Assembly (NCBI GenBank): GCA_016617855.1
Contig: JAECUM010012861.1
Location: 1-64,000, forward strand
Reading direction: 5' to 3'
Source: Megalonaias nervosa
Lineage: Eukaryota > Mollusca > Bivalvia > Unionida > Unionidae
DNA: 64,000 nucleotides
The position numbers and the translations under genes are program-made. Below, in pieces: positions 9,111 to 61,629 of the stretch. Numbering within the stretch: position 1 is the stretch's first letter; each line of letters begins with the position of its first letter. Below the pieces are notes generated by a model. It had not been told where the DNA came from, made no database searches, and worked only from the letters and a program-made list of their open reading frames with translations.

Positions 9111-9119
9111 ACATGATTA

Positions 9120-20644: not shown

Positions 20645-21096
20645 TCATGGAGAAGATTTTAGGTATTTTTTCCTTCCATTCTCTAGTGTTTTCATCAAAG
20701 AGTTTTGAGCAAATTCCTTCCAGACATGAATTGGAGTCATTACTTTTATCCATGAGGGTGAACATTTGAAATCTTCCTCCATCAGATAAACGGGAATGAC
20801 TCTAGGGCCTTCGTTTATCTGAAAACTGTTATACTTAACTACTTCTGCTTGAAATTTAGATAGACTGTTCTGCATAAAGGCTTTTGTACAAAGGATGAAC
20901 ACCAATCTGCAATCTTCAAGCACATAGTCTAATGCCGATACTTGACTGGTACCTGATACCACGTACTCATCATACAAGATCGTCTTTGCTTGGGGTTTGA
21001 GATCTTTAAGAACGTCAAGCTTATGTTGTCGAAAGCTGATTGCTTCATTCCTGTCAGCTTCACAGTGTAAAATGAGGACATCATATACAATTGCAG
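20645..21096 (-). CDS. Exon 9: C-terminal TIR domain (TICAM-like), last exon
   Basis: Acceptor ATCTTACTTTTCAG|CT. It has 2 bases, 149 codons and a stop. Box 1 is YDVLILHCEADRNEA (residues 548-562). The BB-loop region is EYVVSGTSQ (587-595), lacking the RxxPG of most Toll-like receptors. LVFILCTKAFM and RVIPVYL (642-648) form the later core strands, and HVWKE (667-671) sits at the box-3 position. The DxxILHxExDxxEA opening and missing Pro-Gly suggest the TICAM (TRIF/TRAM) branch more than MyD88 or TLR. A glutamate in KFQAEVVKY (Glu628) falls about where SARM1-type enzymes have their catalytic Glu, but signalling TIRs also often have an acid there, so this does not show NADase activity. Confidence 0.9.
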
Positions 21097-23616
21097 CTGA
21101 AAAGTAAGATAAAGAAGCTAGTGATAAAAAGATCTTAGATTTTAACATAATTTCTTTTTAACTACCATAATATACTGTCTGAAAGTCATGACAATTTCTT
21201 TCATATAACTGAATTTTTACAGGAATAAACATGGGTGTGCTAAACATTTCAAATAAATGTATATCCATTCAAATTAAAATTTTAACAAAATAATAACATG
21301 GACATGAACAGTAATAAATATATTATTATGATTATTATTATTACTGAAGTAATTCAATCTTGATTGATCGATCACATTAAGTTGTATGGATCATGACCAT
21401 CTGAAGCATCAAGTCATAATCACTATTTCCTGATACCAACAACATAATGTACCAAAATCAAGATCAAATTACTATGATAATGATATTTTTGTATACCTAT
21501 TCATTTTTAGATAATTTAATTAAAAGAAATTGCTTCACATTTTATCCTTCTTAATACAAACTGCATCTTAGACTAGAAACCAAATTAATTTTTTATCCGC
21601 TAGTATGTACATGAATGTCAGACCAAATTAATTTTTTATCTGCTAGTACTGTATGTACATGAATGTCAGTTTTATAAGTGATTCACTTATAGTTTCAGCC
21701 TTGTTTTTGAGAGTATCGTGACAGAATCAGAAAATATATTGTTTTCCTATTTTTAGAAAATAATAAATTCTGTCTCTTTCTTGAGAAAAGTATTTATAGG
21801 TATATAACATACAAGAACTTTTGACATGGATTGTAAATGGACTTTGTTTTAAAGTGGATATGGGGATTCTATTAACGTACAGTACAATGCTATTGTTTGT
21901 TATAATATGTGCCAACTGCAGTTATCTTAGCGCCAGATCTGCAACTGAATAATAAGTCAGAAGAGCAGTGTCTATTATGCTTACTTAAAAATATTAGATA
22001 AATAAACATGCATAGACCTTCATCTGCCAGCATTTTGTGTGCCTGAAGATCAGGGTCTATAATATAACCAACTGGATGACAATCATATATGTTAAACTGC
22101 AATCCCTTCTGAATGAATACCATATTTACTTTCGCATGAGTTAGATCTAACTTCAAACTGCATAGACCCAGTCTGTGATGTATAATGCACCAGCAGATTT
22201 GGGTCTGTGCAGTTTGTTGGGAATAATCATTAGAACAACCAACACAGACCCTAATCTGCTGGCACATTATGTGATGGCAAATCAGGGTTTGTGTTGCTTG
22301 TAGCTGGGCCTAACTAATAAGTGAGTATGCACAGTATATGTTTAACAAGTATAATCATTTTTCACCAATTGTTTATGTAAAATTCCATAAATATAGTCCT
22401 ACATGCTATGGCAGATGTCCTCTCCAAGCTTTTCTTCCTTTCCATTATTATTGTCTTGATGCGTCTGAAGTCTTTTTCCATTTGTAATGGCTCAATGAGT
22501 TGCAGAAGGGCATCCAAGTTTTCTGCCTGGAACATTTGCTTTTCTTCTAAAGCTGCTAGAAGGAACTGAACATCGTCAGGTTTTGCTTCAATTATGAAGG
22601 ACTGCAAAGCCTCTTGGTTTTGAAGCCTCTCTTTAAAGTCCTTGCTGCGATTTTTGTATAAATCATTTAAAAAATTGAAAATCCTTCTAGTTTCATATCG
22701 TAACTGAACCTGAAGAAAAGAGAGACTTTTGTTGTAGCCAGAATCTAATACATTTTGAATCCTACCACCACCCATTCCTTGATCTTGGAAGAAAAATGCC
22801 CCTCAAAGTGAAAAAATTATATCAAAATTTACATAATAAAGTACAGCGAATTGATGGGGACTCATGCAGATAAAAAAGTCAGTATATATACAGTGTATAC
22901 AACAAATCCTGCAAAAAGACTGATATTTCGAGAAATGACAATCTCAAAACTTGTTGTTTTCATTTTTATATTTTTCTGTCATTCAATATGTTAATAGATC
23001 AAGCGAGAGATATAATTACAGTAGAATGTAAAAAAAGATAAAATTCACAAAGGTTAATCAAACATAAAACATGAATTTAATGGGTATAAAAATTTTAAAA
23101 ACCCAAAACCAATGAGAACATGTTAATATCTGCAGTTTGTGACATACTTTACAAATATCACTTCATATTTCACTGCCTGATTTGCTGAACATATCTCTCC
23201 TGAAAACGAATTTTGTTTTATTCTATTTCGGCACTGGAATATTCAAAACCATCAATGGCCTGCCATTAAATCAGAGTCTTTTTGCCATTTTCTCTGCCTG
23301 AGATAGGAACACCATGCTGTGTGAACCAGGTGTACACAGCATCATGTAATTCCATATTGTTTGTAGTCCGTGCCCATTTTCATTTAAATTCATCATCAGA
23401 ATCGACATTGTGAGCAATCCTGAAATTTCTGCTCATCCCTGAGCCAACCTCTGACTGTCAACTCAACAATTCTAAGTTCACAAGAAACTTTTGATCTTGC
23501 TTCGACATTATGAACCCAGTATCAATGAATCAAAGCTTTTTATTCACAAAGTACACCTTCACTTGATTCCTTTACTCCCCACAATCACATTTACAAATGA
23601 TTAGGATACATTACTA

Positions 23617-23687
<71 letters not shown>

Positions 23688-23937
23688 AAACAACAATGAA
23701 ATAAATAGATTACAGTTTGTGTATGCCTCCTAACCAAGAAATGTACCATATGACCTTGATGGGCTTTTGCTACTTTGTATCTCTGGTATTGTGAACACTG
23801 TATTTGAATCCCATGGAAAGTGAACAAATACCTTTACAATCACCCAGGTTCATTTAGTCTACTTGGTGTGAGTTCAGTTTCAAGGTTTTTCTCTCTCACT
23901 CCACAGATTTCCATAGATGTTGTCCAGAGGCTCATGC

Positions 23938-24034
<97 letters not shown>

Positions 24035-24245
24035 TAAAGCAGAAAGGACTTTTGAAATTGTGTACCATGTTTGATTCATTTAGGAAATGGGGATTATTAA
24101 CATTTTTTTGTCATTATCTTATGCTACTAATGATTACTCAATGGAAATTCATCACTGATCTAGAGAATATAGAAGCAATAGTCTACTATTAAAACATATC
24201 CTACTGCTGAAACATATAAATGCACTATGGGCAGATCACAATTCG

Positions 24246-24308
<63 letters not shown>

Positions 24309-27300
24309 GTGCAAAATTTTGTAGAAGTTCTCACAGCACATTTAAAATGGTCAGTGCAATATGTAACAAATTAAATTTATGAATGGATCTAAGTACCATA
24401 CTAAATCACTACACTGTCGTGGTTTTAATGTCCTGGTTTGGGGCATGGTTGATTTTTAATTGGTGCCCATTTAATAGCAGTCACACAGAAGGATGAGGCA
24501 AGGTGAATTTGGGATCTAAATATCAGAAAATGACACAGTTGAAATGATGCAGAGACAACTTTGTACCCATTGAAATAAGTATCATAAGATGAAACTTTCC
24601 AGAAATCAGTTCATTAAGAAAGTGATACCTGGATAGGCACTTGTTAATTTTCAGTGGTTAGATAAATTTAATCCTTATTAGCTAAGCTAAATAATTGGTG
24701 TGTATTTCCCAGACAAAATTTGATGTTTTATGTATTCTCCATCACAAGATTAGTCAGTCTAAGTTTTGCAAGAAGGCGAAATCTTATCTCTGAGTAAGAA
24801 TAGCAAGTATTTTGTTCTAGTTAAATAAAAATCCAAGGGATGGGTGTCTGAAAGTATTTGAGAGACAAGGAACTAAATATAAAGACTGTTATGATAGAAG
24901 CAAGCGAGTCTTGAAAGCACAAGGGAAATAGCTCCATATATGCACCATCCTGAGTGGGCAGAGGGCAAACAACCAAATTATGGTTGATGACCCGAAAGAG
25001 GCTGGAGTGAAAAGAGCAAAAAGGAATACAGTGACTCTAACCTTTCACCAACATTGAATTTGTCAGACCAGCAAGCAACCAGGTTATGTTGGCATGCAAA
25101 ACAATTGAGTCTGATTGCTCACTCTGTCTCATGATAAAATTTGTCTTATCGGTATAAACAGAATCGCTAATTGCATTTTATGAACTTGATAATTAATTTC
25201 TAAGAAAGTGTATCATTCAAATGCTATGTTCAATTTAATTTTGTCTATATAACTGTTCTGTATACAGGGGTTTGTGTTGTTCTATTCTATTTCTCTGCTC
25301 TGATCTCTGTTTATTCCATCCATTTCATATTTTTACTATCCACTTGATCCGGGCAATAACGCCATGGGCGTTCATCTCCTAGATAATTTTAACCAACCCA
25401 AAAACCTCGTACAGGTACTCCCCAAGATATGTAAGGGTTACATTCCTGGGACATCTGCATATGTCGGTTTGTATAAGTTGAGTTTTACTAGGCAACATAT
25501 GGCTCTGACATCATGGCGAAGGGTAATGTTAACAAAACACAATAAAAATCCTTAAGATTATGAAAAATGTAACAGAAATGATTCACACATCTACATGAGA
25601 GGAGAAGCAGAACTATCGGTATATACTGTGGGTACACTCAATCTGAAGATCAAAAACCTGTATGCATGTTTGCAGTTCATTAAGTATCTCCGAATTTGCG
25701 TATGTCACAGTTTACACATCTCTGGGAGTACCTGTATATTCTTTCATTTGTTAAAGTAACAAAATACACCTGACCATTTGTAAAAAATACCATATCTACT
25801 TGCATACTAGCCAAATAATTTAGGGAAAAAAAAGGCCTGGAAGAAGGGGATTCAGCTTATCTGCAGGCCATGCAAGGTCTAAATTTTAAGGTTTTTAAGA
25901 TTTTTTTGTCGACTACCATAATGGCTGCAAATCTTGGGACACAAAGAAAAAAATTTGTTCCATGTCTTAGGATATATAAGCATGTGGGAAAACAAATACA
26001 TTCTCAGTGTCACAACTCTTACTAAACTGTTACAAACTACTATGACTGCTTTTGTTATTACTTTGCATGTGCATATTTTTTTATTTCTCCAACACAAAAT
26101 TAAATAAAGGTAAATAAAGATTTCATAATTCATAGGCCAGTTTGAGTTTACCTGGAAGACAAGGCTGTACTATAATGTACAGTACTTACACAGTGCAAAT
26201 CATGCCTAGCGTTAATTTAATCCTTGTTTATTACCAAACATATTAGATGCAGAGTTTGCGATATTCATTTTTTTTTACCAAATCACATTCTTCCAAATAA
26301 CACTTCAGCTAATCGGTAATAGCTGCTTCATTTATGTTGATCCACGTGCTCATCAGTGTTACTCTTTTTCAATGATATAAGTGATGCTACAAATTGAGGT
26401 AATCTTTATGAAAAGGTACACACATTCAATTGTGCAAAGCACAACCAGCATAACTGTTACGAGTTCATGAAAGAATGGTAAAAATAAAGGGTAAAATTCT
26501 GAATACAGATCAACTAAGATCATCATCAATCTATTTTACTTTTGTGTTTTGGCTGAACAAAATCATAATTTTCCACACAATGGAAAGCAGGATGTTTAGG
26601 CATCTCCTTTGTTTATAACTGGCGGATTTGTCTTTTGTTTTCCGACAGCAATACAGGCCAGTTAATCATTAAAACCTTGAAACTGGCTTGGGTTAAGAGG
26701 GTCTTTTGACTGGCAACTATACCAGTTCTTGGATATGTAATTGCCTTTCACTCCATAATATTAGCATGATTACCGTAGTTTTTTAAAATGGGGTGTAAGG
26801 TTGCTTACATCCAAGCAAACTACAACTCAGTTTTTACGGCATTAACATAATTTTTGAAGCATTATTTCTGAAACTTCCTTTTTGTAATTCGGATTTATCA
26901 TCAAAGTTCAGTACAGTGGTACCCATGATTCGAATCCAAGGGATGTACCTCATTTAGCAAAATGTACTTCATTCAGCACTTCTTCAAACCTACAATCTAC
27001 AATGTACATTCGGTAGTACCATTATGTACATACACTCACTAGCCTAGCAGCAAACATTGAATCAAACCCTATTGTTGTTCATTGTTGTCATACTGAGATA
27101 ATATTTTAATGAGTTAGGTACTTGCAATTTCAAGGCAAAATAAAAATGTAATAACTGGTGCACTGATATAAAAAGTCTGATGTGATAATGCATAAACAAA
27201 AAAAATAATTGAGTCAAAAGGTAGACATAGTGTTACAGCAACCTGCGAATGCTCAATTCTTGTCATCATCCGATTGAGTTATCCACAAATCTGAATTTGG

Positions 27301-30300
27301 CAGAAACAATAAGAAAACAGAAAATTAAATAAATTTCTTGACTTTTCAAACCATTTCTATGTAATAATCGTACATGCCAACCCCAACACAGTTATATGGG
27401 TAATTTTTACTAATGTAAGTTTGCCTAAATAAATGTGTTTAGAACTTACCACGTGCATCTTGTGATGTTGTCTCGGACCTTTGGGTTGGCTTATACACAG
27501 GTCATAAACTTTTTAGTATTTATACCTATTTAATTTGGAGGGGGTCGGATGATATGTCAATGGGTTGATATGTGAGTATATACAGTACTTCTTTTTCTAC
27601 TACTGACCTTTGCTATTTTTTTACGCTGAGTTTCATCGGATGATTCATATGCCCTTGATTTACATATATCCATAACAACAAGTTCTCTCATCACATCAAA
27701 ATCTGTGTCAGTCATGACCTGTAAAGACAAATGTAAAACTTGAAGTGACCATAGTGAATCACAATGTAACCATAGCTGTGTCAGTTCTGACCTGTTAAGA
27801 CAAATGTAAAACTCTTAAGTCACCACAGTATTACTAAAATATGGTCTTAAACTAAGTAACAGAAAAGAGTGAAAAGCAATAATAAGTTTTGTAAAATTCA
27901 ACAAATAATTTATTTCCATAGAATATAAAGTGAAAAATATATAAAGAACTTACAGTATTGATAATCCCAAATAATCCTAGAATTTCTAACACAAGTCATA
28001 ATGATTAATGTTCTAAATAAACTTTAGTGGTATTCCAAAATAAATCCAACACTGGAAGTGTTGATGTGCCTATGGTGGCTCGTGTCATGGTGATGCACCA
28101 ACAGCCTTTTGTTGGATCACAATAATACAATCTAGGAATATATCCTTATTTGGATTTCACTATAAATCCAAGTCTCTAATTCCAAGAATGTTATTTTTGA
28201 GTACCTTGTATTTCCAGAGACAAATCACTTGAATTAAATAATGTGAATAAAAAAATTCCAGCCCAGTGAAATACTGGACACAACAATAATACAACTGATT
28301 CTGCTCAGATCTTACAGCTCAAATGAATAATTTATAGATAATCAAGATTATATAGTCCTCTACTTGACCTCAGGTCACAATTAGCATTTTCTAAAAAACT
28401 ATTATCTAATGGAAAATTTCATTCTGGAAGGTCTCAAATGTTTACAAGATAAAATCTTAGTTATAATTAGAAGGTCTGTTACAAAAATTATAATATCAAA
28501 TATGGTAAATAATGTAGACCTGGCATTTTATGGGGAATTTCCAAAGTTCTGGACTCAGATTTAGATAAACATGTTCTTTGCAAAACTAAAATCAATGATT
28601 CAGGTCAGGTAGAAAATGAACTTGATTTTGGACAAGTCCAAAATAAATAATCCATAACATAATAATAATAAATTTTTTTACAAAGAACAAAACCAAACAA
28701 TGCAAATTAAATATATATAACAATAGTGAATCATATTGCAACTATAGCTGTGTCAGTACTGACCTGTAAAGACAAATGTAAAACTCAGTGTCCATAGTGA
28801 ACCATGATGTAACATAGCTGTTCCCAATGAGTGTGTTCTTGTGTGCATTTAATGCATGTACTCACTATGTCCATCCCAGCAGATGAAAAAATAACCATGT
28901 AAAATCTATATATGCATACAAACATGCCAATCAAATTTCATTTCTTTAGGTCAAGTGTTCTGCCATCAACTGAATAGGCAAACAGAGAGTAAAAAAACAT
29001 ATCCCTGCTGCAAGCAGTGCAGGTGTAAAAATAAAAGATAGATGTCTGTTGCAATCAAATGTTATAGTTTCATCCCACTGCAATGCCTCATTAAATAAAC
29101 TGCATTTACCCATGCATAACATGCTTTGAGTTCCACTGCACTGCATATTTAAACAGACAGAAGCTATAGAACAGTACCAGATTGCAGTTTCATTTAAAAT
29201 TTTAAATTCATTCCTTGATTTAAGATTTTTATATTGGTTGAAAATAATGAATTATTCACAGAACAGGCATCCAAGATTAAAATACTGCCATTGTAACTTG
29301 AATTCACCTTCAGAGAGTTTTGTTTCACCTTTAGGACATTTTAAGTCTTTTTCTTTCTCAAAGTTTAGGATCTTCTAAAGAATAGCAAGACTCCATTAAG
29401 TGTATGATTTAAATACTCCAAAGTCATTTTAAATCATTCTCATATCATATAAAATTACAATATTGTTGTATCAGTGGTAAAAATAAAACAAAAACACATG
29501 TGATCTTAAGAAGAAATTCTGAGAAAGTCAGTAAAACCAATTCATGTTCCGGTGTTACAAAATGTTAAATAACATGCCAACAGAAACAATGTCTATTCTG
29601 TTTTTTCTACCAATGACATTTACAGCCCAAATCTGATTGAAATCCAACAATCCTTGGAGAAGTAATGCTCAGACACCAGAGAGCAGAAGTGTTGTAAATG
29701 ATGTTATTATATGCTCATTTTTTTCTCCGTTAACTTTACATTGTCAGAATCGTGCAATATTATGCGATACTGCACTCCTCGTGCTCAATTCATACTTAAT
29801 GCACGTGAATAAAGGAACTACTTTCTATTGTAAACAAACAATTCTATTTTCTAATGTAAACAATTTTTTTATGAATGAACTAAAGCAGATATTTCATGGA
29901 CTGCCACATACCAGCAAATTTTTCTTAGACTGCCACATAGCAGCTGCTTTGGCACATTCCGCGTTAACTTTTTTGATACAATGTTTCAGATTTAGGCTAG
30001 CTATATACGCCAGACAGGGTCCTCACAATAACACGCAAGTTGTAAGACATAAACTGTCTTCTTTAGCTGGTAATAAAAATGGCAAAAATATACTTACAAT
30101 TTTACATCCTGAACTTCCTCAAAATATACTTTCGTAGTTCTGCAAATCCGAATTACATGAGCCATGTCATGGGTTCTCAAGGTTGATTACACATTTCGAA
30201 ATTGTACTGTAATTTCGAGCATATTCCAAGTGCAGTTACATCCTCCTTACTGCACTCAAAATGAAATAAACATTAAATTCCATAGCGTCTTTTCGATAAT

Positions 30301-33253
30301 TGCAATTGAAAGGCTTCATAATTTTCCCACATTATGATCTGAATCATTCAATGACAGAACAGAAACACGCATGCCGATGTCAACACACTTCAATGCGATT
30401 AAATTGGCAGATGCTGCTAAAATCCGATGTAAGTTACTTCATGTAGATAAATCCAGACCATAATCAAAAACTGCGTCGAATCGACAAAAATACCAAAACG
30501 TATTCATTCCAGATCAAATGGAAAAGTTGTTGCAATGCGTATTCATTAACAATATTACTCCAAATTTCAATTTTAAGTAGACCAAACGCCATTTTCTTTC
30601 GAAACTTATGTCTAGCGCGCAACCAACTTCAAATTTGTCTGGGCGGAGTTACGTGCGCATTAATAATGTTGTGTAATGATGCAGCTACGCTTGTATATTT
30701 AGTTTGGAAAACGGCATACATTCGGTTACTTTGTTTATTGTAGTGTATTATTGTTTATATATTTAAGCATTGGGAAGAATAAGAAAATGAGCATATAATA
30801 AAAAGGTTACTGCATTTGTATGGGAAAATATGAACTCATTTTGTTGGATGGATATACTGCCCTCCCAAGGTCGTGCAGTATAACCATCCGAAAAACTTGT
30901 TCATATTTTCCCATACAAATGCAGTAACCTATAATTGTGGAATGGTGGAAATCAAACTCTTTCAAGGTCTCATCAGTACATAGCTTCATACTAAATTCTG
31001 ATGAAATCCAATAATCAATGGTAAAATTGAACTGCAGAAACCAAAGACATGAGAGTGGGCAATCAGGGGCCATAACTCCAGTAATGCTATAAACTGATTT
31101 CATACAAGGTCTCATGAAATCCAACAAACCTTGGCAAAGATATGCCATGGAACCCAAAGTTGGATCTTCCAACAAAACTGGGGTGGGAGGAGGGAGTTAA
31201 AACTACTGCAAAGTGATATTGTGAAACACTGGCCAGAAATCAAACTCATTTAAGTTCTCCGTGACATAAGCCAAACATCTATTATGTTTGAATCCAACAA
31301 TCCTCTGTAAGGTTACGCTAAAGAAACCAATGTCAGCAGGGCATGCAACTGGGGACATAACTCCTGTAAATCATGTTACTAAATACTAGAAGTCCAAGTC
31401 ATTTAGGTTTCAATAATATAAAGCTACATGCCATATTTGGCTAAAATCCATTAATCTTTTGTAAACTTCAGCTACATGCCATATTTGGTTGAAATCCATT
31501 TATCCTGTGTAAAGCTGCAGAAATCAAAAGTAGGAGGATGGGCAGTTAGGAGCCATAAATCCTCTAAATGTACAATCAGGGGTAATAAATCCTCTAAATG
31601 GTCAATCAGGGGCAATAAATCCTCCAATTGTACAATCAGGGCAATAAATCCTCTAAATGGGCAATCTGGGGCCATAAATCCTCCAAATGTACAATCAGGG
31701 GCAATAAATCCTCTAAATGGGCAATCAAGGGCCATAAATCCTCTAAATGTACAATCAGGGGCAATAAATCCTCTAAATGGGCAATCAGGAGCCATAAATC
31801 CTCTAAATGGGCAATCAGGGGCCATAAATCAATTTACTTCTTTGGATATTAAAATATGTATGAGTTATTTCAAGTGACACAATTTACTTCTCTGGTTAGT
31901 AGATAATGTATGATATATGAAAGATAGTGAAGAACAAAACAAAAATACCATATGGATCAAACTATATATATGTTCAACTTTTTGAAATGTTCATAATAAT
32001 TTAAAATATCCAAAGTTTCAACCAGGATTTCTATCAGTTAAAGAATCTGCACAGTTTTATTTACTTTGATGAATGCTTATAAGGCTTTTGGTGCTAAATT
32101 TTGCTCAATATGGCTATATTATTATATTTTTGTAAAGAACATGTGAAATATGAACAGAAAACCAATTTTTCAATCACACTTAAAATCTATCAAAAAAGAA
32201 AAGAAAAAAAGTAACATAACTCTTCTTTGCCTGAAACTGGGTACAACCATTGTTCAGTACAGCCCATCAAAGCCTTGATATGTGCAACTGTCTTTCCTTG
32301 CTAACTGCATCTTTGTTTTTATGCCATCAGAGTAAGATACAGTAACACATGATAAATACCATTATAAAATACATGATGAACCTTAAAATCTAATAATTTA
32401 CCTTATCTACACTACATAATGCATTTTCCATCTTCTCCTCTGCTTTCTGATATATTCTTTTTTCATCTTCTGAAACATCCTCATCATCAGCAAAGCTTTC
32501 AAATTTCTGCTTCATATGCACCATAAGTATTTTGATCTGTTCAATGCCATTTTCCATTTCCTTCTCAGAGCAGCACAAGTTATGAGAATGTGCTACTAAA
32601 TTACGCACTTTCAAAACCTGTATATAAACAAACACATACATTTCTTACACATGTCAACTGAACACATCTGCTGTGTTACTCTACTGTTGTCAGGTTCTCA
32701 ACATGATGGAATAAAATCCAGAAAAAGATGAGGATGTACTGTTCCAACAGGGAAGTCACACTATTATGAGGTGCTGTTTTTACTAATTATTAAACCTGTC
32801 TGTATAAAATATTTCAATATTTTAGATAAAAAAGTAGAATATTTGATTTCAAATATTGCGGATGATTTCTTATATGAACAAACTGAAATTTTGGAATCGA
32901 CTATATAATTTTTTAAAATAAAAATGTAGTATATTTTATAACCAATAAAAACCAAACTCTTTCCTCCAAACCAAGGACTGCTCCCCTTCACTGCAATGCC
33001 ATCCAGTGCACCCTACACTGTATTGTACATTACACTAAGTTAACGTGATTATTTCCTTAAAACTTGCATTCAGTGTCATTTGTTTGTTTTGCCAATACAA
33101 TAATCCACTGTATACTGCCTAAAATTATTCTTCTCTCTGAAGACAAACAGAATCACCAATATGAGGATTTAACAATTAAATTCAGACCAAATCAGACTGA
33201 ACTGGACAAGATCACATCACGATAGTGTTTAAGAAAATGCTGAAATGGGTGCT

Positions 33254-33338
<85 letters not shown>

Positions 33339-35361: not shown

Positions 35362-35457
<96 letters not shown>

Positions 35458-38400
35458 TGTATGTATGTATGTATTGTTTTAATCTTTCCATTGGTCTCAT
35501 CTGGTGATAGCAGGAAACCATAGATTTTTCCCAGTGATTTGCTATGGATTTGAGCACAAGTTTTTATTTATAAGCCAAATATATTTACACAGTATTCCTG
35601 TCACTGATGATTTTGTTGTCACATTTGTACTATGCTAAATCCACTCACTTAAAATTCATTAGTTTGGTAAAAACTTTCTCTTTCTTTGCTTAATACAGAT
35701 GTGTGTTTCAATTTCAACTTCCTGACAGCTAGCATCAGATTAAAAAAAGTCCTTTATATCAACACCAACAAGATTTATTTTTTATAAATGCATCAAGAGT
35801 GTCAACACTGCAGCTTTATGTAGATAAACTCAGGTCTGAAAATCTGTGCTCACACTCCATCCTAAACACTAATCTTCTAATAGTGAATATGTCTGAAGCT
35901 AAGTCAAATATGTGAGGTCACTAATCATGCAGTTCAGCAAAATTTCTCTTCATTTACATATCTTTATATGAAATAACACTATAACTCTAAAATAAGAAAT
36001 TCTTATAAAATGGTTGTACCAAGGGTTTCATTGTCAACCTGAGTGGTAATACTCCCAGGGCTAAGAAAAACCATAACGATGGTTCAATAGTTTTTTTTTT
36101 TTAAATTATCACAACTACTACTAGTCATTAATTTCTCAGATACCTCATGATATTAATGGAATCTTTATTATCCAATATACAATTTAGCAGCTAATGGTCA
36201 TCAAGGAATAGGTTCAAAATGTGATTAACAAGCCAAATACAAAAAATGGTCCCTAGAAGGGACTGGTGTTCTACTGGCCAAAAAGAATTTCCATGACCTC
36301 AAGTTAAGACCGTTTTTTCATTTAACTACTGAGGATTACAACCATCTGATATTCATCAGTGATTACACGATTTTTAAATTAAATGTTGTGGTGAAGATAT
36401 TGTACATCAGACTGTCGCCATTTACATCATGTCTTGCAGTGAAAACCCCATGCTGATATGACCATCCATTTGGGAGGAGTCAAAGCAATAACAAGACTTT
36501 CCATGTGTGAGCAGGACCATTTTCATTTAGTACTGAGACAGTGCACGACGTCTTTTGGTGAAAGTCCCATGTCAATATGAATTTCCATTCAAAAGAAGTA
36601 GCAATAACAAGATTTTCAAAATGGCTACTGTGGTGGCCATATTAGACATCAAAACAGCACCATTTTCATGTTGGACCAACAAGATATCATAAAAATTATT
36701 TTAGTGAATTCATCCTTTCAGAAAGAGTAGTGATAACATGATTTTCAAGATAGCTCCTGTGTTAGATGTGTGAGTGGCACTATTTTCAATTAGCACAACT
36801 GGGCATGATTGAGGAGTTTTCTTGTGAAAACCTGATTTCAAAAAAGACCCTCAGAAGAAGTTGCAATAACAAGATTTTTAAAACGGCTGTCAAGGTGACC
36901 ATACAGGACATCTGACTGACACAGTTTTCAGTTAGACCAAAACAAGGCATCATGCATCAAAACCCTACACTAACACTACCATCCATTCAGGAGTAGCAAT
37001 AATAAAATTTACAAGATGACCTCTCTGGCAGACATACTGAAGTCCAGACTGCACCATTTTCATTTAAGACCAACTAGACCATGAGATGAATTCATGTGTA
37101 TGTATGCTATCATGACAGTCATCCAATTAGATCAGGAGAATTAGTAGTAATAAGAAATGAAAGACAATAGGATATCTGATAATTAGCTCTCCTGATCTAA
37201 CAACAATGATCACAAAAAAGGGAAGAATAAAGACAGGTTTTGAAAAAAGCATCAATATAAACTGATGGTGAACAAGGACAAGAAAATGCTAGTTGTAATA
37301 ATTTTCCAGATCGCTCAAAATATTCATAAATTTGTTGCTTTTATTCACTATAATTTATATTACTGGTACATGACATTCTCCTACTTTGCAATCTTTATTA
37401 TTATTATCAATACATGTATTATTATTATTATTATTATTATTATTACATGCTTTTGTTATCAAATAAATTACATTTTATGACAACTCAGTTTCCTCTTTCA
37501 AACTTTTGCATCACTATCAAAATAAATAAACTCGGCACACAAAATAATTTTTCTAGGATATAATTTCTGGAACTTAAAATACACACAATCATGGTCTAAT
37601 ATTGATTAGTATCCTCTCTTCACCTTGATATCCCTTCTTTGTTAGGGGCCCCAGGTGGACACCTGGTCAAAAGCACTAACCTTTACCAATCACTGTCATC
37701 TTACACCTGTCCATGTGGGTTCGAGTCTTGGGCCCAGCTGATGTGGGTATGTGAGAAAGCTGCCAGTAGCTTCCTGTGGGTAAGTGGTTCTTACTGTGGT
37801 TTACCCAAGGTTCATCCTCCAGTTAGACTGGCTGTCATATGTAACGTATCTAGTGCTGAAAAGTGGCATTTTAAACCACAAAAAAAACCATTTCTTTGCT
37901 ATCTTCTAATCCTATTTATCTGTACTCGATCTCAAATTTGTTATTTCAATTTTCAGATTTTGAAATCGTACTTGGTACTTGTAACAGTGCAAGTTATATT
38001 ATATGATTTAAATTTATTAAATATTGGTTTTCTCCTTGGATTCTTCTAAGATGTAAACTATATACAGTATAGAAAGCCATAATGCAGCAAGACCCTGGAC
38101 CACCTTCTGGTTTACAAATCTTTCTACAAGGAAATCTGCAATAATCTCTGTTTATAAGCAAATCATATATACATTTTTTTTGTTAATAAAATCAGACTGT
38201 GTTAAGAAATTTGTATTCATAATTGTATCAACTACTAAAAATTCAATTAAAATAATAAAAAATTAAAATATGTAAGCAAGTTGGAAATTACAAGAATTGT
38301 TTTAACAAGTTTTGCACTCACTCACAGAGTAAGGCTAGTTATGATACCTCTTGAATTTTTTCATGTCCAGACTTGTCATCTGCCCCAACTTTCAGCCAGC

Positions 38401-41400
38401 CATTAAACTGCTTGCAGCTAGAGATGAGTCTGAGAATGCCCATGATATCTGTGTCTTTAGGACAGCTGTTTTTCTCCATCTGCCCAGATGGCATAAAAGC
38501 TTTACCTGTTTCCCAAGGTTGGGACTCCCATTTCTCTATGTTTACATTCTTTATGTAAATTTTGTTGCTTTCATCAACTGCATTCAAACATTTGTTTTTG
38601 AGATAATCATTCAATATTTTTTCCTTATTACCTCCATTTTTGGTCTTTTGTTTTTTTTGTATCTCTTGTATCTCTACCCATAGCTTTTTATGTAATTTTT
38701 CTATTTCTGATTGCACAGGTTCATGTAACGGCTCCTTCAAATAAAGTAGCGCCCTCCCTAATCGAAGATATCTATGATGTCCTTCACGGTCTAACACATA
38801 CTTAGAATCCCTGAAAGAGAATGGTACAGCTAGATAACAACCAAACAAAAATACATAACACCATGAAATCATACAAAAAGTCACTGCACTCTATATGCTG
38901 TTGGCTTCTTTACTGCATGATAAAGGATATGAATGTACCAAGTAGTCACAAAAATATAAAACTGGTTCTCAGACTTAATTTTCAGATACTAGCTTGTCTC
39001 AAGATGAGACCACCCATCAAGTGTTTTTACTACTTTAATAAAAAAAACAATTGTGTAAATATTTATCCAGTCAGGCCTGAATTTCAGAGTTTTTTTGCTA
39101 GAGCTGGATATATTTTCATGAACCAGTCTCAAGAGACTTTACTTCTGACATGTCACTTTTGATTGGATGAGCATGGAAATTCATATTGAAGCCCATAGCT
39201 GTATGATCTCTATGCCTTGTACTTGGATTACAAGAAATATTCTCACATTCAAACTCTGACTAAACAAAAAAATCTGATGTCTGATTGGTTAGTGATTTGA
39301 CATTAGCCAATCAGAATTTAAAGTTAAGTTTGAATTTGATAATTTTCTTGAAAACCTGGAGCTTGCTCAAATCTGATCTGAGATTACAAACAACATTCTT
39401 AAACTGAAGACTCAATTCAAAATTCTGTTGTCTCATTGTTTATTGATTTCACTATAGCCAATCAGACATCAGAATTCTGAAAATGTGCATTTGACTGCAT
39501 GTTTAACAGTTACTGGAAACTTAACTCATGAATGCATTTTTAATGTTGAAATTTTACTTATGCAACAAAAGGAATACTTTATCACAATTGCAATGCAATT
39601 CCAGGTGTAGAAAACATACATTACCTCTGGCATCAAGTTTGAGCATGAGACCAACTGAAGACATCGCTAAGGACTTTGTTTTTGAAAAGTTAATTTTCAT
39701 TGGCTGTTAATTTTATAATTTAAAGTCAGTGCAGTAATGATTCACATAAAAACATGTAAAGCACATTCTAATATTCTAAACTCGAGATTCCTTCAAATTT
39801 TCTGAAGCCCTTCTGGCAACAAAAAAGAAATCTGGAGGAATTCATCAGAAGTTGTTTTGTTCCTTAATTTATCTTTATTAACTGCAGAGTATTTAAATCA
39901 TCTAAGATATTCTTGAGAAACTCCAACATACCAAATTTAGTAACAAAAATATTTCTTACACGAGTTAAAATGTTTGCAAGATAAGTGCAGTACAAAAATT
40001 TGTATCATAGTCTTTGACGTTGACTTCATTGTTACAAAAATCAATGAACTAGTCTCAGATACTGACATTAATTATACCAACAAATAAAAAAAATTCCTTT
40101 GTTTAATCCATAATTAATATTTGTTTTTAAAAAAGACATTACCCCTTTGACCTTGAAATCAACTTCAGAATTCCCCATTAGAAAATTGTTTTCAGGTAGA
40201 GTTTACAGTTCTGACTAGAATAATGAATGTTGAAAAATTTCAAGCAGGGATATGAAACTTGGAATACGCTAGAATAGAACACTCTGGCAAAAATCGGTTA
40301 CTGACTGAGATATGGTACTTTGATAAATGTCAAGCTGGTGTTTGAAACTTAGACAAAACAGTGGATAGTGGAAAATATTAAGAAAATATTCATATACAGA
40401 AATAAATGTAAAAAAAACAGAAAATATAGTTAGGTCTGGTGCCGCAACAATGTTTTCTAACTGAAATATATCAAAGCATTATCGCTTTACAAAATAGAAT
40501 TTTAACATGTGGTATGTATTTGGGTCTATGTAGCTTGTTAGGTGTAATCAATAGAACAAGCAGCATAGACCCTGATCTTCTGGCGCATATGTGATAGCAG
40601 ATCAGGGCCTATGTTTGCAGCTGGACATGACTTATAAATAACTACATATGGTATGTATGATCTTAAACGCTTCGATCAATTACCGTAGCTAATGAGTGTT
40701 GTTTTTTAGATACTTTTACATATTATAGTGTTTTAACTTTTCAAATTGTTGCTGATTATGAGTTATAAAGGTGCACAGTAATGGATGCTCTTTTAGTTTG
40801 ATATGAATGGTGGGATTTTTAGAAATTAATTAAACCTTTCTGTGACCAGTAATTATCTCCCCTATTAACTTCATGATATAAAACATTTAGCATTTAGGGG
40901 TAGATTTGTCAAAATTTATTGAGTTTTTTTTTTTTTCCTTTTAAGAATAGTGCAATGAAAACTTTTTCTGTTTCCAATTAAATTAAATTTCACATATTGG
41001 AAACTTGTTTGTTGTTAAACAGAATTTCTTGTGTAAATGTTTTGCCTTGACCATTAAAAAATTATTTAATCTGACAACTTGAACTATGGTATACAAATAT
41101 TTTCATTTTTAATTTATTTAAAAGAGCTTTTCTTCTTAGGATTTTAATGTGCTTCATATTAGTTATTAGTTACATTCTGCCTTTTGGCCAAACTTCACCC
41201 CATACATTAACAACCGCACGAATAAAGTAATCCCATTTCCACCCATTTTTTGAATACCCCGTTTTAAAAAATGTACAGCCAATTCAAAATTGTGTCTAGG
41301 GTGGCTCTTCTTCTAATGATGTGGCTTCCACAGCATCCATATGGAAAACTTATTTCTAACTTCCTCTCTAGAACAGCTGAGCCAGTTGTTACAGTCTCTG

Positions 41401-44400
41401 GAATAACTTACTTAGGTACTGCTGTACTGCTGTAAGCCCTATTTGATTTAAAGGTGTGGGTGCTACATTATGTGGAAATGAATGGGAATTTCAACAAAAC
41501 AAGAAACAGAAATACAACTGGAGGAATAGTGGACAGTTTGCAAACATAACCATTTTTACCTCATCCAACCTCTACCTCCATCATCGATATTACTTTTTAT
41601 TCAAACACTTCTAAAAATCGTGTCACTGGGCAACATGATCTTATTTTAATGACCAATATAAGAGATTCATAGCAATCCACCAAAAACTGAGAGTAAGATG
41701 GATTCACATAATTTGCATCCCACCATAATTAAAAAGGGGCAATAACTCCGACTAAAATTGTGGAAATATTCTCATTATATGCGTGTTTTGATGATTACCA
41801 ATATATACATGCATGCAAGAATAATTTTAGTCAAAAGGCCACATGTCAATGCCACCACCCATGCAAGTGATAACAAGATTTTCAGAATGGCCACTATAAT
41901 GCCAAGTTGGAGGTCAAGCTAGCACCATTTTCATTTAAAAAAACTACATAATGTTAAAGTGCTTAGTTGAAAACATCATGGTCATACAACCATCAATTTA
42001 GCCAATTTAGCATCATTTTAGGATAGGAACATATACTATACATTGCTGGAAAAAATTTAAATATAGTATTGTTATCCATTCTGGAGAAATAGCTGTACTG
42101 GTAACAAGATTTTTCAGTTTTTGGGAGGTCACATTAGCATCATGTTCATGTATAGGGTTTATTCATGACAGCAAAATCCAAGCTATAGAACTGACTCATG
42201 TTTAATTCCATTCAAGATAATCAGTGGCAAGAAAATTTTCAGGAGCAATTGCACAAGCATCAGTGAACACATAAAATATACAAAATTTCATTTTGTATTG
42301 TCTGTGAAATATATGTATATGCACTGAGAAGCAGGAGGTACTTATATTGTTTGATTAAGATCATGTAAAAAAGAAATACCAGAAGTCTGCCTTATATTTT
42401 GGGGAATGATGTTCTATACCAGTAAACTGAAAACTCTTCATAAACAATTCCTTCTTCGACTTTGGTATAATGTAACTTTGAATCCTAAGAGATCATCAAA
42501 TTGGAGTACCAGCAACATCTCCTTGGTTAAAAATATTCTTTAGTTAGATGGGAACGGTTTTTCTAGACACTTTTACATAAATTTGGCCTTTCTAAAAATA
42601 TACTTTTATACATTGGCATAGTTTATACACATTTCACTGAATCCCTAAAATTGTCTATAGATTGATCTATAATTAAATGGCATGCATGCCCTCCTTTGGA
42701 ATTTTAAAAGTATTGTTATGTTTGAATTACCCCAAATTACATTACAATATTTCAAATACATGTACAGCTGAATGCAACATTTATAAAAGATGACCCTACA
42801 CTTAAAAAGAATAAATGATTTGATTTGTTAGGTAGCCAAAGATAAAACAATAACCTTTTTCTGAAACCTGTCTAATGTGAATAAACCAAGTTTGATTGTT
42901 ATCTACAAATACACCAAAACTTTTACCATGAGAGGTCATACAGTAATTAAAGCCAACACTACCAAATTGAACTTGGAATTTATCACTGTCTAGTCTTCCT
43001 CATTTTTTTCTTGTAACTAGTAGGGATTTTGTCTTCTCAGTTTATATATTTATAATAATATTTTCTCTGCACCATACTAGTACTTTAAGTTTGTTAAGAG
43101 CATCTTATAAGTTATTTTCCAATTAATTTTAGTTTTACACAACTCAGAAAAATTAAATTTCCTCTCTTATGGGGTAAATGGTTAATAAAGCAAATGAATT
43201 ACAGAGGTCAGTCCAAGACAAAAGCTTTGTTGCTAAGTGGTCCATGGTCTTGACAGATCACTGACATCTCACCTCTGTTTGCTTGGGTCTGAATCTTCAG
43301 CTTGGTCAGTATCGGTATGTTAGAAAGTCTGCCAGCAGCTTCCCATGGGTCAGAGGTTCTTCCCAGGTCTTCTACCAGTTGTACTGGCCACCACTGATAG
43401 CTATCAATGTGCTCAAAATATGGTGTCAAACCCACAAAACCAACTCCACAATTAATATTTTTACTTTCAGAAAGGTGACTATTTAAAAAGACATTTTTAA
43501 ATTTATCAGTTAACTATGAAGTAAACTAGCTTAAGAACTTTTCATTGCACTGGTGAAATTTTAACATTCAAGACAACTTTTATGGTCTACAAAATCAAAA
43601 GCTTTATGAAAATCAACCAATAATAGTGCCAACATTTCTCCTTTCTGGTGCAGTTTGCAGTTGAATTCAACTTATAAGCTTGTATTTATGGTAATTCTCT
43701 TTTTAGAACTCAGTTCTGTCTGTAATGTATAGAAAAAATAAATGCTTATTTCCTACCAAAATTTTTCTCTCATAATAACTCCAAATTTATACTTAACAGA
43801 ATTCAACTCTGTGTTCAAAGTGTTTGAGCAAACTGATAACTTTAAAACAACCCAAAGGAATTTTACACAACATGCAACATAATGTTTAGGGATTGCAGAA
43901 CGCTCATCAAAGTGAATTCCATACACCTGAGGAAGGAATGGTGAGGCCAAATTCACCCTCTGATTTCAAAATATTTTGAGAGAACTAAATACTACATACT
44001 AATAGGTAGTCAGCTGACCTTCTACTCCCTTCATCAGTCCTTAGCCCCTTGGGACAGATGCTTAAGATAGGTAGGAAAGTATGTATGTATGTAACAGACA
44101 GACAGATGGACTTAAAACATCATAATACAACATGTTCTGCTATAAAAAGAATTTACTTCATGGTAACCAACGGTGAAGTGGGTAGGCTACTGCTGAAATT
44201 TGTTGGGGGCAAGACATTATATTACACTGGATCAATTGCTCTGAGCTTTCACTACCATCTATATTCAACAGTCAATGAATATGCCATTACTTACCCTTCC
44301 CCTATAATCAAGGGGTTCTCCTCTCCTGCTGTCAGAGAAACTGATGAATCAGAATGTAGACGTTCTGGAGGTATGGGAACCTCACCTTCTGGGGATGCAT

Positions 44401-47400
44401 TCTCTATGATCAGTTTGTTTGCCATGCCATTAAGTTCACTGCATTTGATCTAGATTCAGTTGCTACAAAGTAAAGTTGCAATCAGCAGCAGCAGACAAAA
44501 AATTATTTACTGTAAGATATTGATGGATTTATATTTTTGAAGTTAATGTTTTTTAATAGTACTGACTGGACCTTTCTTGGATTAAACTATTTTAAATGTC
44601 TATCTTAACTCCCATGTTCACTTATCAAAAGAGTAAAGTTCAACTAATTCAAATATTTTGATTCTAAATATTTTCTCAAAGTTCAGACCAATAACACTCG
44701 CATGAAACAGTAGAACTCTTTATTAAAATAGCACATTAAAACGATCTTCTTTGTATTTCCTACCTCCTCTCACTAATTATAATCAAGGCAAAACTGTTAC
44801 AATGGAACTCCCACAACCAAGCTCTGTTTCCATGGTAAAGATACAAAAAATTCTGAACACTTACAGTATACACTCACTTATAAGTTGTGTCCAACTGTAA
44901 GCAACATAGACCCTTGTCTAATTTGCATAATGTGCTGGCAGATCATGGCCATTATGCAGTTTGCAGTTGTATTTGATTTATACACAAGTCTATATGGTAT
45001 CTACAACCACATCCTAAAGTTCTGAAGGACTGATCTTAAATGATATTAACAAGTTGTGCAACATTCATGCATGCATGCAAATTCGAAAAAGTCCAAGATC
45101 ACAGAATACACTTTTTCTTCAAAAAGCACAAGGATATGAATAATTCTGCCTACCTTAAAATATGCATTATTATAAGTTAAAGTGGTTGCACACATAGAGC
45201 TATTACACTGTCACGTAAGATAGCCTGATTGTGAGATATTACACTGTCATGTAAGACTGCCATTACACTGTTATGTAAGATGGCCTGATTGTGAGATATT
45301 ACACTGTCATGTAAGACTGCCATTACACTGTTATGTAAGATGGCCTGATTGTGAGATATTATACTGTCATGTGAGACTGCTATTACACTGTTATGTAAGA
45401 TGGCCTGATTGTGAGATATTACACTGTAAGACTGCCATTACACTGTTATGTAAGATGGCCTGATTGTGAGATATTACATTGTCATGTGAGACTGCTATTA
45501 CACTGTTATGTGAGATGGCCTGATTGTGAGATATTACACTGTCATGTGAGACTGCTATTACACTGTTATGTGAGATGGCCTGATTGTGAGATATTACACT
45601 GTCATGTGAGACTGCTATTACACTGTTATGTGAGATGGCCTGATTGTGAGATATTAAGCAGACACTTTAATCCAGTGGAATTGCTCTGCCCAGAGTAAAT
45701 ACACATATAACTTTATCAAAAAGGACAAATTTTAAAATATATTCTCTCAAACTAAAGTTTTTAAAATATCAAAACAATGCATTGAGCTTACCATATTTAC
45801 TTTGTGGAAAGTATGTCCTTGTACTAAACATGTTGGAAACCCCTTTCCCCACACCAGAAACTCCAGTTTGAATTGAAAAAAAAAATAACGGCATGTATCT
45901 TAAAAATTCACACAGAAAGCTAGGTAGTAAAGTAATGGTATAACTCAAAATGATTTTATCAATTTATAAAATAATAACCTCTGCAGCTAATTGTTGTCCG
46001 TGCCACTGGTTAGATTAAGAATTAGTAGCTAATATCCATTCACAGCCAAATCTGCCTTTCTATTCACAAGAAAAGACCACTTAATGTATAAAAAAAACAC
46101 TAGTGACCTCAACTGTAGATAATGATATATTCAACTTCTCAACATTCTTCTCATTCCCTTCTTCTTCTCCAACATCTTCTCAACTATTACTTACTATTAC
46201 CTCCGTGTACTATAGTGTCCGGTTCAAACTTTCCACATTTAATATAACTAGCTCTTATAGCTCGCAAAGAAGTAGTATTAGTAGTGGAGGTAAGAACATT
46301 CACTAATAAGTTCACAATTACTGCCTTGCAATTAAGTTGTGTATTGACAGGAAATGGTGAATGAGATAATATTACACAAAGGATATCTCCATGATTACCT
46401 TGAAAACTCCTAGATCAAGAATAAAATTTGTAAAGAAACACAGAATGTCAAAACTGGTAATCTCCTTGAAGTTAATCAAGCCTCTGTCTGTGTGTGTCTG
46501 TGTCTGTGTGCTAATGCAGGATATATTTCATCATCTAGTGCAAAAAAATGGCCATTTCAACATGAGCAAAGCCATTAGTTCAAATATGTCATTTTTTTGT
46601 TTCACAAGATTAAATATACCTGCTATTATATAAGAAACTTACTCATAAATTGAAGCTTACAAGATTAAAGTTGCTCTTCAGCACACCACCCCTACACTTT
46701 TTCATAAATTTACCTCCCTTTCAACTATATTTATTGGCTGATCATATATAACAGTGATTAAAGAGAGCAGTATCATTGGAATAGCCTCATCTGTTGGAAG
46801 GGGAGATAACTTTACAGCAACCTGAAAAAACATCGAGTCAGATTTCTTCAGCAACAGATAATTTCCATGAGTAAAAGGTAACATATTTTCCATTTATTTC
46901 ATCTAGCTCACAAAGGGATGATTTTTCTTCCTGCAGGTATAACATCTTCTGGAACATATAATCAAGCTTAGAAAAATTTTTTCACACAAAAAAATATAGG
47001 AATTAAAAAAATTAAAATTGCCTCATTAATCATCATTTTATGATTCACTGATACAGATTCTATCTCTCTATCTCTCTAGTATGTGTGTGTGTGCATGCTT
47101 GACCTTAGTCCACAATTTGGGATTTAATTTTTATGTGTACCTGATTTTTCTGTCTTGATTGTAAGTTACAAATAAGTTTTTTACTGATATCTGAGTTCAT
47201 GGTCTAGCCTTACTTAAAAAGATTTAAATGTTCTGGAAGAGAACTTTTAACCCACATCCTGGTCACTTTAATGTGTCTTAGGTTTTTATATAATGTTGTT
47301 GAAAACAAAATTATTCATTTCTATTTTTAATATTAGTCTGTATAATTACTTTAAGCTGTGTTCAGATACATGCTGAGAAGAATTATTTATTTAAATTATT

Positions 47401-47706
47401 CATTGGAATTACAATTGTTGATTGACTCCTTTGACTAGAACACTACTTTGGAATTATTGAGGACTATCCAAATACAATATGGATTACAACATTATAGGAC
47501 ATTCAGGACTATTGGAATTCATTTGTAAGATTCCATACTCTTGGACTTTTAACAGAAAAGTTAGATTTATTTGGAATTTAATTCATAATACTGTCAGTTC
47601 CCCTATTTTCATTTTGTAATGCAGAGAATTAAATTGTATTGTTGAATGTTACTAAACTTGTGGATTTTGCTTCCTTCCATTACATAGTTTTAGACCATAA
47701 TACCAT

Positions 47707-47776
<70 letters not shown>

Positions 47777-49372
47777 CACCCAAAGATGAAGTATTCCCAT
47801 CAGTTCCAGATGTAATTGCATATAAAAGATATAAATATCTACATGCATGCAAAAATTCTGGTGATTTTTTTTGTATCAGAAAATGAAAAACGTTTTGAGC
47901 CATGCATGGTTGTTTATTTTTATTATTATCACTGAAAACGTTTTGAGCATTCACAATGGACTGTAACCAAATGGAAGGGTGCAGAGATACAGTATTTCTT
48001 CTTAGATGTAACCACCCCCACCCCCGTCCCTGGAAGGTGTGTGTATTGGGGGAGGCATTGAGAATCAGACTAAAATACCGGGGGGGGGGGGGAGGGGGCT
48101 TAAAATTAGATACATAAGTATTGAGGACTTGGGTACACACGTTCATTCCAATTTGGATTGAGTGTTTTGTTGTGTTTTGTCTTTTTTAATGATGTGCATG
48201 TTAGCATTTTACTTGCATCATCCATATTATGGATTTCTGCGGAAGGCTGAAAGACAAGAACACGAACATAAAAACTGCATATAGTAAAAAAAAAAGTTAC
48301 TTTCAGTTTCAAGTAGCCGCCATTGTGACCTTCTACTGTAGACTCACAGTGTAAGACGTCGACTCAATTGGCTACGATCTCCTAGGTATCTGGGTCGACG
48401 TCTTACATTCACAAGCACCAGTTTCCGTCAGTATGAAAAGGAAACTGTTCACAACATCCACTCCTCGTCTGCTGACACTGTAGTGCCAACTTTTACTGTA
48501 ACTTGACGTAGTTCCCATAACACATTAAAATTACTTATGCCACAACTACATCCTTTGCAAATGCTGAAAGCAAGACTTAGTTATTCATGCTGTCTTACCA
48601 GTAAAAACTTTGCCTTAATGCCTGCTTTCACGTTATTTTTCATGATTAAAAGCGAACGAATTGTTTCACGTTCTTCTTTGTTTGGTAATGAATACTGAAT
48701 GCGGTAAAATGTTGAGTGTAGTCACGTGATATATATTTTCACTATTTACCCGCGACACGTCTGAGCAAAGTAGTCGGAGTGGCAGAGTGTCATTCATTGC
48801 ACGGTAGAATCGTTAAGTCATTTTGACTTCATCCTATTTACGTTGGGTTTATTATTAAGCCCTTTCGGCTGCATAAGGATAATATTTAAAAACGGAAATA
48901 TCAATTTAATGCAGTCATATATTGGCAAACATTTGTGTCAGATAAATGAGCAAGGTACCCATTTCAGCAGGGCTGGATTAAGGGGGGGGGGTGCACGTGT
49001 CCCAACCTCTAGTCATGAGGGACCCCCTCGTTGCTGTGGAACAAAATTACATGTGTTTAAACAAACCATATACAGGTCTAATCCGCCCAATACGTAGCTT
49101 AATATAGCTATAATAATTATACACAAATCAAGGACAGTTTAAGGACTGCTTTCAGGGTGAATTTGTAGATCTACAAGGGCTTCTTATCTTAAGTGCCCCG
49201 CCCCCCCACCAAGCCCCAATGCGGCCATGCATTTCTGTCAGAGAAAATACTCTTTGAAGTAAAACGTTGTCATATTATAAAGTCCCTTCATTGTTATAGG
49301 TATACACAGATCTGATGACACATCCAAGTTCTGCCAAAATAAGATATAAATTTTTTATTCACACTGGTTAGT

Positions 49373-49449
<77 letters not shown>

Positions 49450-50081
49450 ACATTCATTAAAAATAACATGGCATTTAAAGTGTTGGTACAAAGCAAACTG
49501 AAACACCAATACTGTTGGTTTATCAAACTGTGATCCGCCCATGGCGCAATAATACGAATATATAAACATTCTTTCAACTGCAGTATTATAGATCAATGAT
49601 GAATTTTCACTAATTAATCAGTAACGACGACGTCATTGACGTATGAAAATAACGATAAAAAGTATTAATTGTCCCCGTTTTCTAAATGAATTTAACATGG
49701 TGCCCAATTTCATCGCAATCCTTTCTTTTTTCCGTTCCCCTCTCCCCTATCATCCATAATGGGCAACATACACCAAAATTCGGAAAGAGAGAGAAAAACA
49801 GTTTGAACTTGATTGAAACCTTAAAACTAAACTTACACCAAGTAACTTACAAGAATATGGTTCATCTTGAGATCTATCTACAGTGTTTATAATATCAATG
49901 ATACATAGTTGCAATAGCCTGTCGACACTATAAGTTAAATTTGTCGGTTACGAGGCACATATACTGTAACGTATTTTATGCTTTATTGTTGTTGTTGTTT
50001 CTTAAACCTATTACAATGTTCTAAAAATCGATTATTAATTAAATATGAAAATGTCCAAACGGTGGTGTCCCCCCCCCCCGG

Positions 50082-50117
<36 letters not shown>

Positions 50118-52515: not shown

Positions 52516-52899
52516 CTTTAAAACAATGAAACAATTTTAGTATATATGGGTATGACAGAGATTTACTTCGTTTAAGTCGGCCCTGTTGTCGGTTTGAGAC
52601 TACCTAAGAATACCCGGATTTTACAAAATGCTTTTGCACAGTAACAGACTTATTCTTCTCCGATATTCTCACGTCACTGTTATTTGCATAAGTTACGTAA
52701 CACATATATCTGCAAATGTCTGCGTGTTGCAGATCATATTAAAGACTGTTATTTTGTATTAATCTGATCGGTTCAAAGAAACAAGAAAAGTTATAACCCA
52801 ATTTGTTTTTGTCAGAACTTTTCAGATACTCGTCGTATATGAAATGTTGTCTGCTAATGAGGCAGAAGCCAACTGATACACCTAGCATACATATAGCTG

Positions 52900-61120: not shown

Positions 61121-61629
61121 AAAGGAACATAAATGAAGATCAGCTTGAAAAATAATTTTAAGGTAATGCCCCATGCACCTAGTCAGGTGGTAATGTAGGG
61201 GAGCATGTAAAATCCTGACAACTTGTGTTCAAAAAAAAGAAAAAGAATTGAGCAATGTGGGACTCCATGCATAATTGTTCCAGGTTCAGATGGAACTTCA
61301 TTTATGGAAACATGTATTCTGCCTTATAAATATGAAGTAAATCATTTAATTATCACATTGGTAAATTTCATTTTGCACCAAAGGATTTCATGATCAACCA
61401 TGTTAGAGGCTTTCATTAAATCTACAAATAAACATCGTACAAAAACTAGAAGTACACTTGTAAGGAATGGTATCATGTTGGCATACTTTTATTTTATGTA
61501 GATTTAACAAAAGAATCATTCTAAGATTATTATTTATAATCTAATTCAGACTTTCAAAAATGACCTATTACATGTATTCTGATCTACAAAGATGGCAAAA
61601 TGATTAATGTTTCTGTCATTTCCTTGCAG
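61121..61629. other. Spacer before the plus-strand exon
   Basis: Includes a stretch reading like a LINE remnant (GACTCCATGCATAATTGTTC ... CACCAAAGGATTTCATGATC). It ends in the acceptor of the 61.6-kb exon. Confidence 0.4.

Follow-up and report, generated by a model that had tools for sequence, protein, structure and literature searches.

A predicted six-exon gene of the mussel Megalonaias nervosa joins a CXorf38-type HEPN domain to an adaptor-like TIR domain

Structure of the HEPN-TIR gene

The window, i.e. the whole 64,000-nucleotide stretch of Megalonaias nervosa DNA analysed here, carries on its minus strand a predicted gene of six coding exons that extends from 44425 down to 20645 and encodes a 559-aa product (559 codons before the stop). 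All of its introns are GT-AG, the exon phases agree, and the intron lengths deduced from the exon coordinates range from 1.3 to 5.7 kb. Coding exon 1 (44295..44425) holds the start codon (MANKLIIENASPEGEV...) and ends with a GTAAGT donor in phase 2; it was placed there because the N-terminal stretch of P0001, a predicted protein of Potamilus streckersoni, was found at these positions. Exons 2 to 6 join in one frame to give a 515-aa product, to which exon 1 adds the start codon. Exon 2 (38348..38810) encodes the first part of a CXorf38-type HEPN domain (DUF4559) without zinc ribbon (its stop-to-stop frame matches Pfam DUF4559 at E 2.8e-14), and the DUF4559 profile runs on through exon 3 (32402..32617), which encodes the second part of this domain and its R-x4-H motif, RNLVAH. 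Exon 4 (27608..27718) is a short linker of 37 codons, delimited by its splice sites and kept both in P0001 and in P0002, a predicted protein of Sinanodonta woodiana. Exon 5 (22403..22709) encodes a helical segment, the first third of which lies inside the DUF4559 profile and the rest of which gives no more than a weak hint of a death-effector fold. Lastly, exon 6 (20645..21096) encodes the TIR domain, for which a three-species profile matches the TIRs of MyD88 and TICAM, and the stop codon. The CXorf38-type HEPN, the helical linker and the adaptor-type TIR are the only domains recognised in the 559-aa protein.

The two CXorf38 blocks, the R-x4-H motif, the helical exon and the TIR exon with its stop codon that a first-pass annotation of this DNA had described on the minus strand are all present, with GT-AG introns and agreeing phases. 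The nine exons, the 693 residues and the extension to 52515 that it also proposed give way to the six-exon model, which begins at the start exon at 44295-44425.

A C2-like piece (48109-48258, minus strand; tail motif LKKTKHNKTLNPNWNE), formerly counted as a part of the gene, is not an exon: its C2 match (E 0.016, 15.8 bits) is below the Pfam cut-off of 22, and it lies outside the gene, upstream of the start exon; the orthologues can be explained without it. When this piece was searched against the genome (a 2.19 Gb assembly of 54,709 contigs, used for all genome searches), it retrieved itself alone. The piece at 52.4-52.6 kb was likewise rejected as an exon, and no Pfam match was found in the frames scanned; the broken frames of this region (52003-52603, minus strand) resemble, by eye, a relic of a mariner transposase. 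The window also contains two long minisatellite arrays (714-1903 and 9119-11302, with units of 43 and 48 bases), broken LINE-like frames at 59017-59983 on the plus strand (RVT_1 at E 8.7e-9 for the first frame, nothing for the second) and, at 61564-62439 on the same strand, a 291-codon open frame with no Pfam match.

Homologues in other mussels and copies in the genome

Two proteins were found at E 0.01 or better when the 515-aa product was searched against about 5.8 billion proteins: P0001 from Potamilus (557 aa, 86% identity over 100% of the query) and P0002 from Sinanodonta (523 aa, 64% identity over 98% of the query), the latter being named 'TIR domain-containing protein' in UniRef. Further protein searches gave the same pair. 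The candidates scored were those that have exact words in common with the query and a length of 0.55-1.75 times that of the query (in one search, the 7994 top word-sharers were scored), so that the recovery of the fusion from two mussels does not show that it is absent elsewhere. Judged from this one protein, the mussel of the window would stand nearer to Potamilus than to Sinanodonta, although P0002 may be a paralogue rather than an orthologue.

The proposal that a CXorf38-like HEPN and a TIR lie in one gene is borne out by these homologues: CXorf38-like and TIR proteins are not always separate, both predicted proteins holding the two halves in the same order, and sequence conservation between the window, Potamilus and Sinanodonta spans the exon joints. 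A wrong joining of two adjacent genes, one CXorf38-like and the other encoding a TIR, could be imagined from introns of up to 5.7 kb and from the fact that the gene model and the homologues are all predictions. It is nevertheless very improbable, since the matches to the proteins of two separately annotated species run from end to end; the agreement of the phases also argues against it. Searches with the TIR and helical exons detected one intact copy of the fusion in the genome and two decayed partial ones, whose TIR exons are 65% and 55% identical to that of the intact gene. In both decayed copies, the helical and TIR exons adjoin in the same order, and this speaks for exons 5 and 6 belonging together; the two contigs that carry the copies (14.3 and 15.3 kb) yielded no HEPN exon. 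Both copies contain stops, which might suggest that the gene itself is a decaying pseudogene, but its 559 open codons, its intact splice sites and its conservation in two other mussels make this hardly credible. The expansion of the fusion in the lineage that had been anticipated is not seen among these copies: the many matches belong to the DUF4559 family as a whole.

The HEPN half and its relatives

In the 559-aa product, DUF4559 (PF15112) matches residues 54-340 (E 2.2e-19, 70.5 bits for a cut-off of 27), and it also exceeds the cut-off in P0001 (73.4 bits) and P0002 (72.6 bits). The R-x4-H motif, which fits the pattern R-x4-6-H, reads RNLVAH in the window and in Potamilus and RHSIGH in Sinanodonta. 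A zinc ribbon inserted in the HEPN is described as a salient feature of CXorf38 in PMC3710099. No C-x2-C pair was seen at the expected place in any of the three species, and inspection by eye showed the paired cysteines of the ribbon in each of nine first-exon relatives (L001-L008, L045). The predicted HEPN of the fusion is classified here as a zinc-ribbon-less offshoot of the CXorf38/DUF4559 family, the Pfam model of which does not require the ribbon. A sub-threshold match to HEPN_Swt1 (E 0.00098) in the scan of the 559-aa product is given little weight because the unrelated Glyco_hydro_49 scores nearly as well (E 0.0035). Among the second-exon relatives, 14 of the 17 matches were fetched; all 14 loci read carry RN-x-x-M-H, and therefore R-x4-H, and have an AG before the same codon as the acceptor of exon 3.

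DUF4559 gives 102 exon-level matches on 83 contigs of the genome; these are matches rather than genes, and several of them hold stops. At least 15 of the 83 contigs carry a NACHT match downstream of DUF4559, on the same strand and about 11 to 38 kb away. This arrangement holds for all 15 contigs with both matches, one of which (C369) has an additional NACHT match upstream; the NACHT search scored 104 of 7100 candidates, and the pairs are same-strand neighbours, not gene models. The nearest relative of exon 2 (51% over 65 residues) is located on contig C2013 (124800-144799, loci L045 and L046), where a HEPN with zinc ribbon and an R-x4-H exon are followed on the same strand by a frame resembling a coiled coil and then by a 1505-codon NACHT frame (NACHT, E 2.8e-12). 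By our own reading, not a Pfam call, the NACHT frame includes leucine-rich repeats. The Pfam scan of the 559-aa product found no NACHT match.

The TIR half and the helical exon

The Pfam gathering scores are not reached by the TIR exon, with 17.1-20.9 bits for TIR_2 (cut-off 28) and 12.5-13.4 bits for TIR (cut-off 21.3). Whole-protein Pfam scans of P0001 and of the 559-aa product gave no TIR match, and in one scan TIR_2 (E 0.0073) did no better than the unrelated Glyco_hydro_49 (E 0.003). The comparison of a three-sequence TIR profile with the PDB was more informative: 12 of the 13 distinct matches up to E 10 are TIRs, namely seven of MyD88 (best E 0.0008), three of TICAM2 (best E 0.04), one of TICAM1 (E 0.044) and one of TLR2, the thirteenth being an RNA polymerase III subunit, and a full-length profile retrieved TIR relatives only. 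As judged from sequence, the TIR of the fusion is akin to those of the MyD88/TICAM adaptors. An NCBIfam scan found nothing and a PADLOC scan one weak match (E 0.027). The structure models (pLDDT 43 for the full-length protein and 50 for the TIR exon alone) are too poor to use, even if strands and helices alternate in the latter; none of the hits of a fold search with it reached E 0.001 (best E 0.048, mainly kinases), and the two SPARTA chains among the top 24 were not counted as evidence.

Within the genome, the TIR exon matched itself, its two decayed close copies and seven distant loci (26-32%). The hhalign comparison of its profile with these seven TIR-like loci gave a probability of 99.6%, the loci themselves being below the Pfam cut-off or unmatched. 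Four of them (C415, C1940, C6414 and C1182) share with it a phase-1 AG that precedes the first TIR strand by 1-3 codons; no such site was seen at C3734, C16337 and C45443. At one of the four, C1182 (104800-114799, L034), a DED-like exon (23.6 bits and E 6.2e-5, for a Pfam cut-off of 35.9 bits) precedes a TIR-like exon by about 5 kb on the same strand; this locus is possibly a DED-TIR adaptor gene. A genome search for DED listed 15 matches, C1182 not being one of them, and none of the contigs listed for DED is also listed for TIR. Another distant locus, on contig C16337 (8000-17999, L032), consists of a frame of 738 codons that matches TIR_2 below threshold (E 0.00042) and has a long tail rich in Q and N; it looks TICAM-like by eye.

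None of the Pfam death-fold families matches helical exon 5, and its profile retrieved RPN1 alone from the PDB (E 0.38). When the exon was compared by hhalign with a set of 12 DED-like exons of this genome (L034 and 11 of the 15 genome DED matches), a probability of 3% was obtained, with a score attained by 1 of 200 column shuffles; leave-one-out controls within the set gave 42.2 to 99.65%. Of the 102-column segments slid along the protein, those beginning at columns 290-370 scored 15.3 to 17.5 against this set, and no other exceeded 14.81. The death-fold part that had been attributed to the gene is retained in a reduced form: the score peak at exon 5 is a weak hint that this exon is death-effector-like. 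Elsewhere in the genome, the helical exon was found only in the two decayed copies.

Proposed origin and function

We read the locus, with about an even chance of being right, as one six-exon gene whose product would join a HEPN to an adaptor TIR and work as an immune adaptor-effector. Its origin and activity can be pictured in this way. A gene of HEPN-NACHT type would have contributed its HEPN half, and a TIR adaptor gene its C-terminal exon, to the fusion. Several copies of the protein would be gathered by a receptor acting upstream or by a TIR assembly, the HEPN domains brought together would pair and cut or bind RNA, and TIR signalling and RNA attack would be carried out by one molecule. 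The boundary positions of both halves match their respective source families (AG of exon 3 in 14 of 14 loci, phase-1 AG of the TIR exon in 4 of 7); these kept positions constitute sequence evidence for the joining, the event itself being what we infer from them. The putative adaptor origin of the TIR exon leans on the DED of C1182, which is below the Pfam cut-off. The presence of one intact copy against many HEPN relatives, together with the adaptor type of the TIR, favours an adaptor-effector, and the fact that R-x4-H is kept speaks for an RNA-active HEPN. The immune adaptor or effector role suggested by the first-pass annotation fits the published CXorf38 fusions (PMC3710099) and the local relative with a HEPN followed by a NACHT; the RNA cleavage and TIR signalling that it added are kept here as presumed activities.

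The roles of the two halves could also be reversed, the TIR being an NAD-consuming enzyme and the HEPN an RNA-binding sensor or scaffold that gathers the TIRs, in the manner of bacterial TIR defence proteins or SARM1. Position 84 of the TIR exon (residue 494), which by eye we take to be the SARM1-type catalytic (NADase) position, is a glutamate in all three species; 8 of the 10 TIRs aligned have it, and MyD88, as aligned with the three-species profile, has a lysine there. However, the two other aligned TIRs have Q or N there, TLR TIRs likewise carry a glutamate at this position, the closest solved TIRs are those of signalling adaptors and the retained R-x4-H favours an active HEPN, all of which make an enzymatic TIR rather unlikely. 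It is also doubtful that the protein is purely an adaptor, in which the HEPN would dimerise with those of HEPN-NACHT receptors and the TIR would relay the signal, RNA remaining uncut. The 102 DUF4559 matches on 83 contigs for a single intact HEPN-TIR gene, and the NACHT downstream on the same strand in 15 of 15 cases, are in line with such partners, but these 15 pairs are neighbouring matches rather than gene models. Moreover, the HEPN of the fusion has diverged (51% over 65 residues with its best relative) and lost the zinc ribbon, while it retains R-x4-H. A more elaborate version, quite unlikely in our view, would make the HEPN-TIR protein the shared adaptor of an inflammasome-like mussel pathway: HEPN-NACHT receptors would recruit this single protein through HEPN-HEPN pairing and its TIR would seed signalling of the MyD88/TRIF type. 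If this were true, the HEPN, a known RNase effector, would serve as a homotypic adaptor domain in place of the CARD, PYD or death domains of vertebrates.

Under the adaptor-effector reading, which we prefer, the fusion would tie a CXorf38-type HEPN to Toll-type or NLR-type immunity within a small and testable protein and, if the HEPN is active, an animal would have RNA attack and TIR signalling coupled in a single molecule.

Comparison with known systems

CXorf38 is described as a HEPN family, listed from Nematostella to vertebrates, that is fused to dsRBD, NACHT, ankyrin, CARD and DEATH and for which a defence against RNA viruses was suggested; none of the five mentions of CXorf38 in this source gives TIR as a partner (PMC3710099). 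Related architectures appear in other reports: 45 of 99 NACHT proteins of Corbicula have DUF4559 (PMC8298618), immune fusions containing HEPN occur in oyster and cnidarians (PMC8195603), a NACHT protein of Aplysia has a DZIP3-like HEPN (PMC9334734) and a protein of Dictyostelium combines B-box and FNIP domains with DUF4559 (PMC4554924). Human CXorf38 was first studied as a lung tumour marker correlated with immune genes, in a paper that does not settle what the protein does biochemically and whose text contains none of the words HEPN, RNase and domain (PMC12196990). In a partial survey of the literature on CXorf38, DUF4559, bivalve HEPN/TIR and Unionida TIR, no report of a CXorf38-TIR fusion was found.

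A HEPN and a TIR are also found in one protein in Thiorhodococcus drewsii (Table 1 of PMC3710099), but this bacterial protein has a HEPN of another family (DUF4145-type) and an ATPase; the likeness is treated here as an analogy. With the CXorf38/DUF4559 family, the fusion shares a profile score above the cut-off, R-x4-H and the codon at which the acceptor of the motif exon lies, common to all 14 local relatives read; it differs by the missing zinc ribbon and by its TIR partner. It resembles the bivalve HEPN(DUF4559)-NACHT proteins in its DUF4559 HEPN, the local relatives of which lie upstream of NACHT matches, whereas it has a TIR instead of a NACHT and only 559 aa, as compared with the 1505-codon NACHT frame of C2013. 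Like MyD88 and the TICAM proteins (TRIF, TRAM), whose TIRs are the best solved relatives of its own, it has a C-terminal TIR, but it carries a HEPN instead of a clear death domain, and its helical exon gives only a weak death-effector hint.
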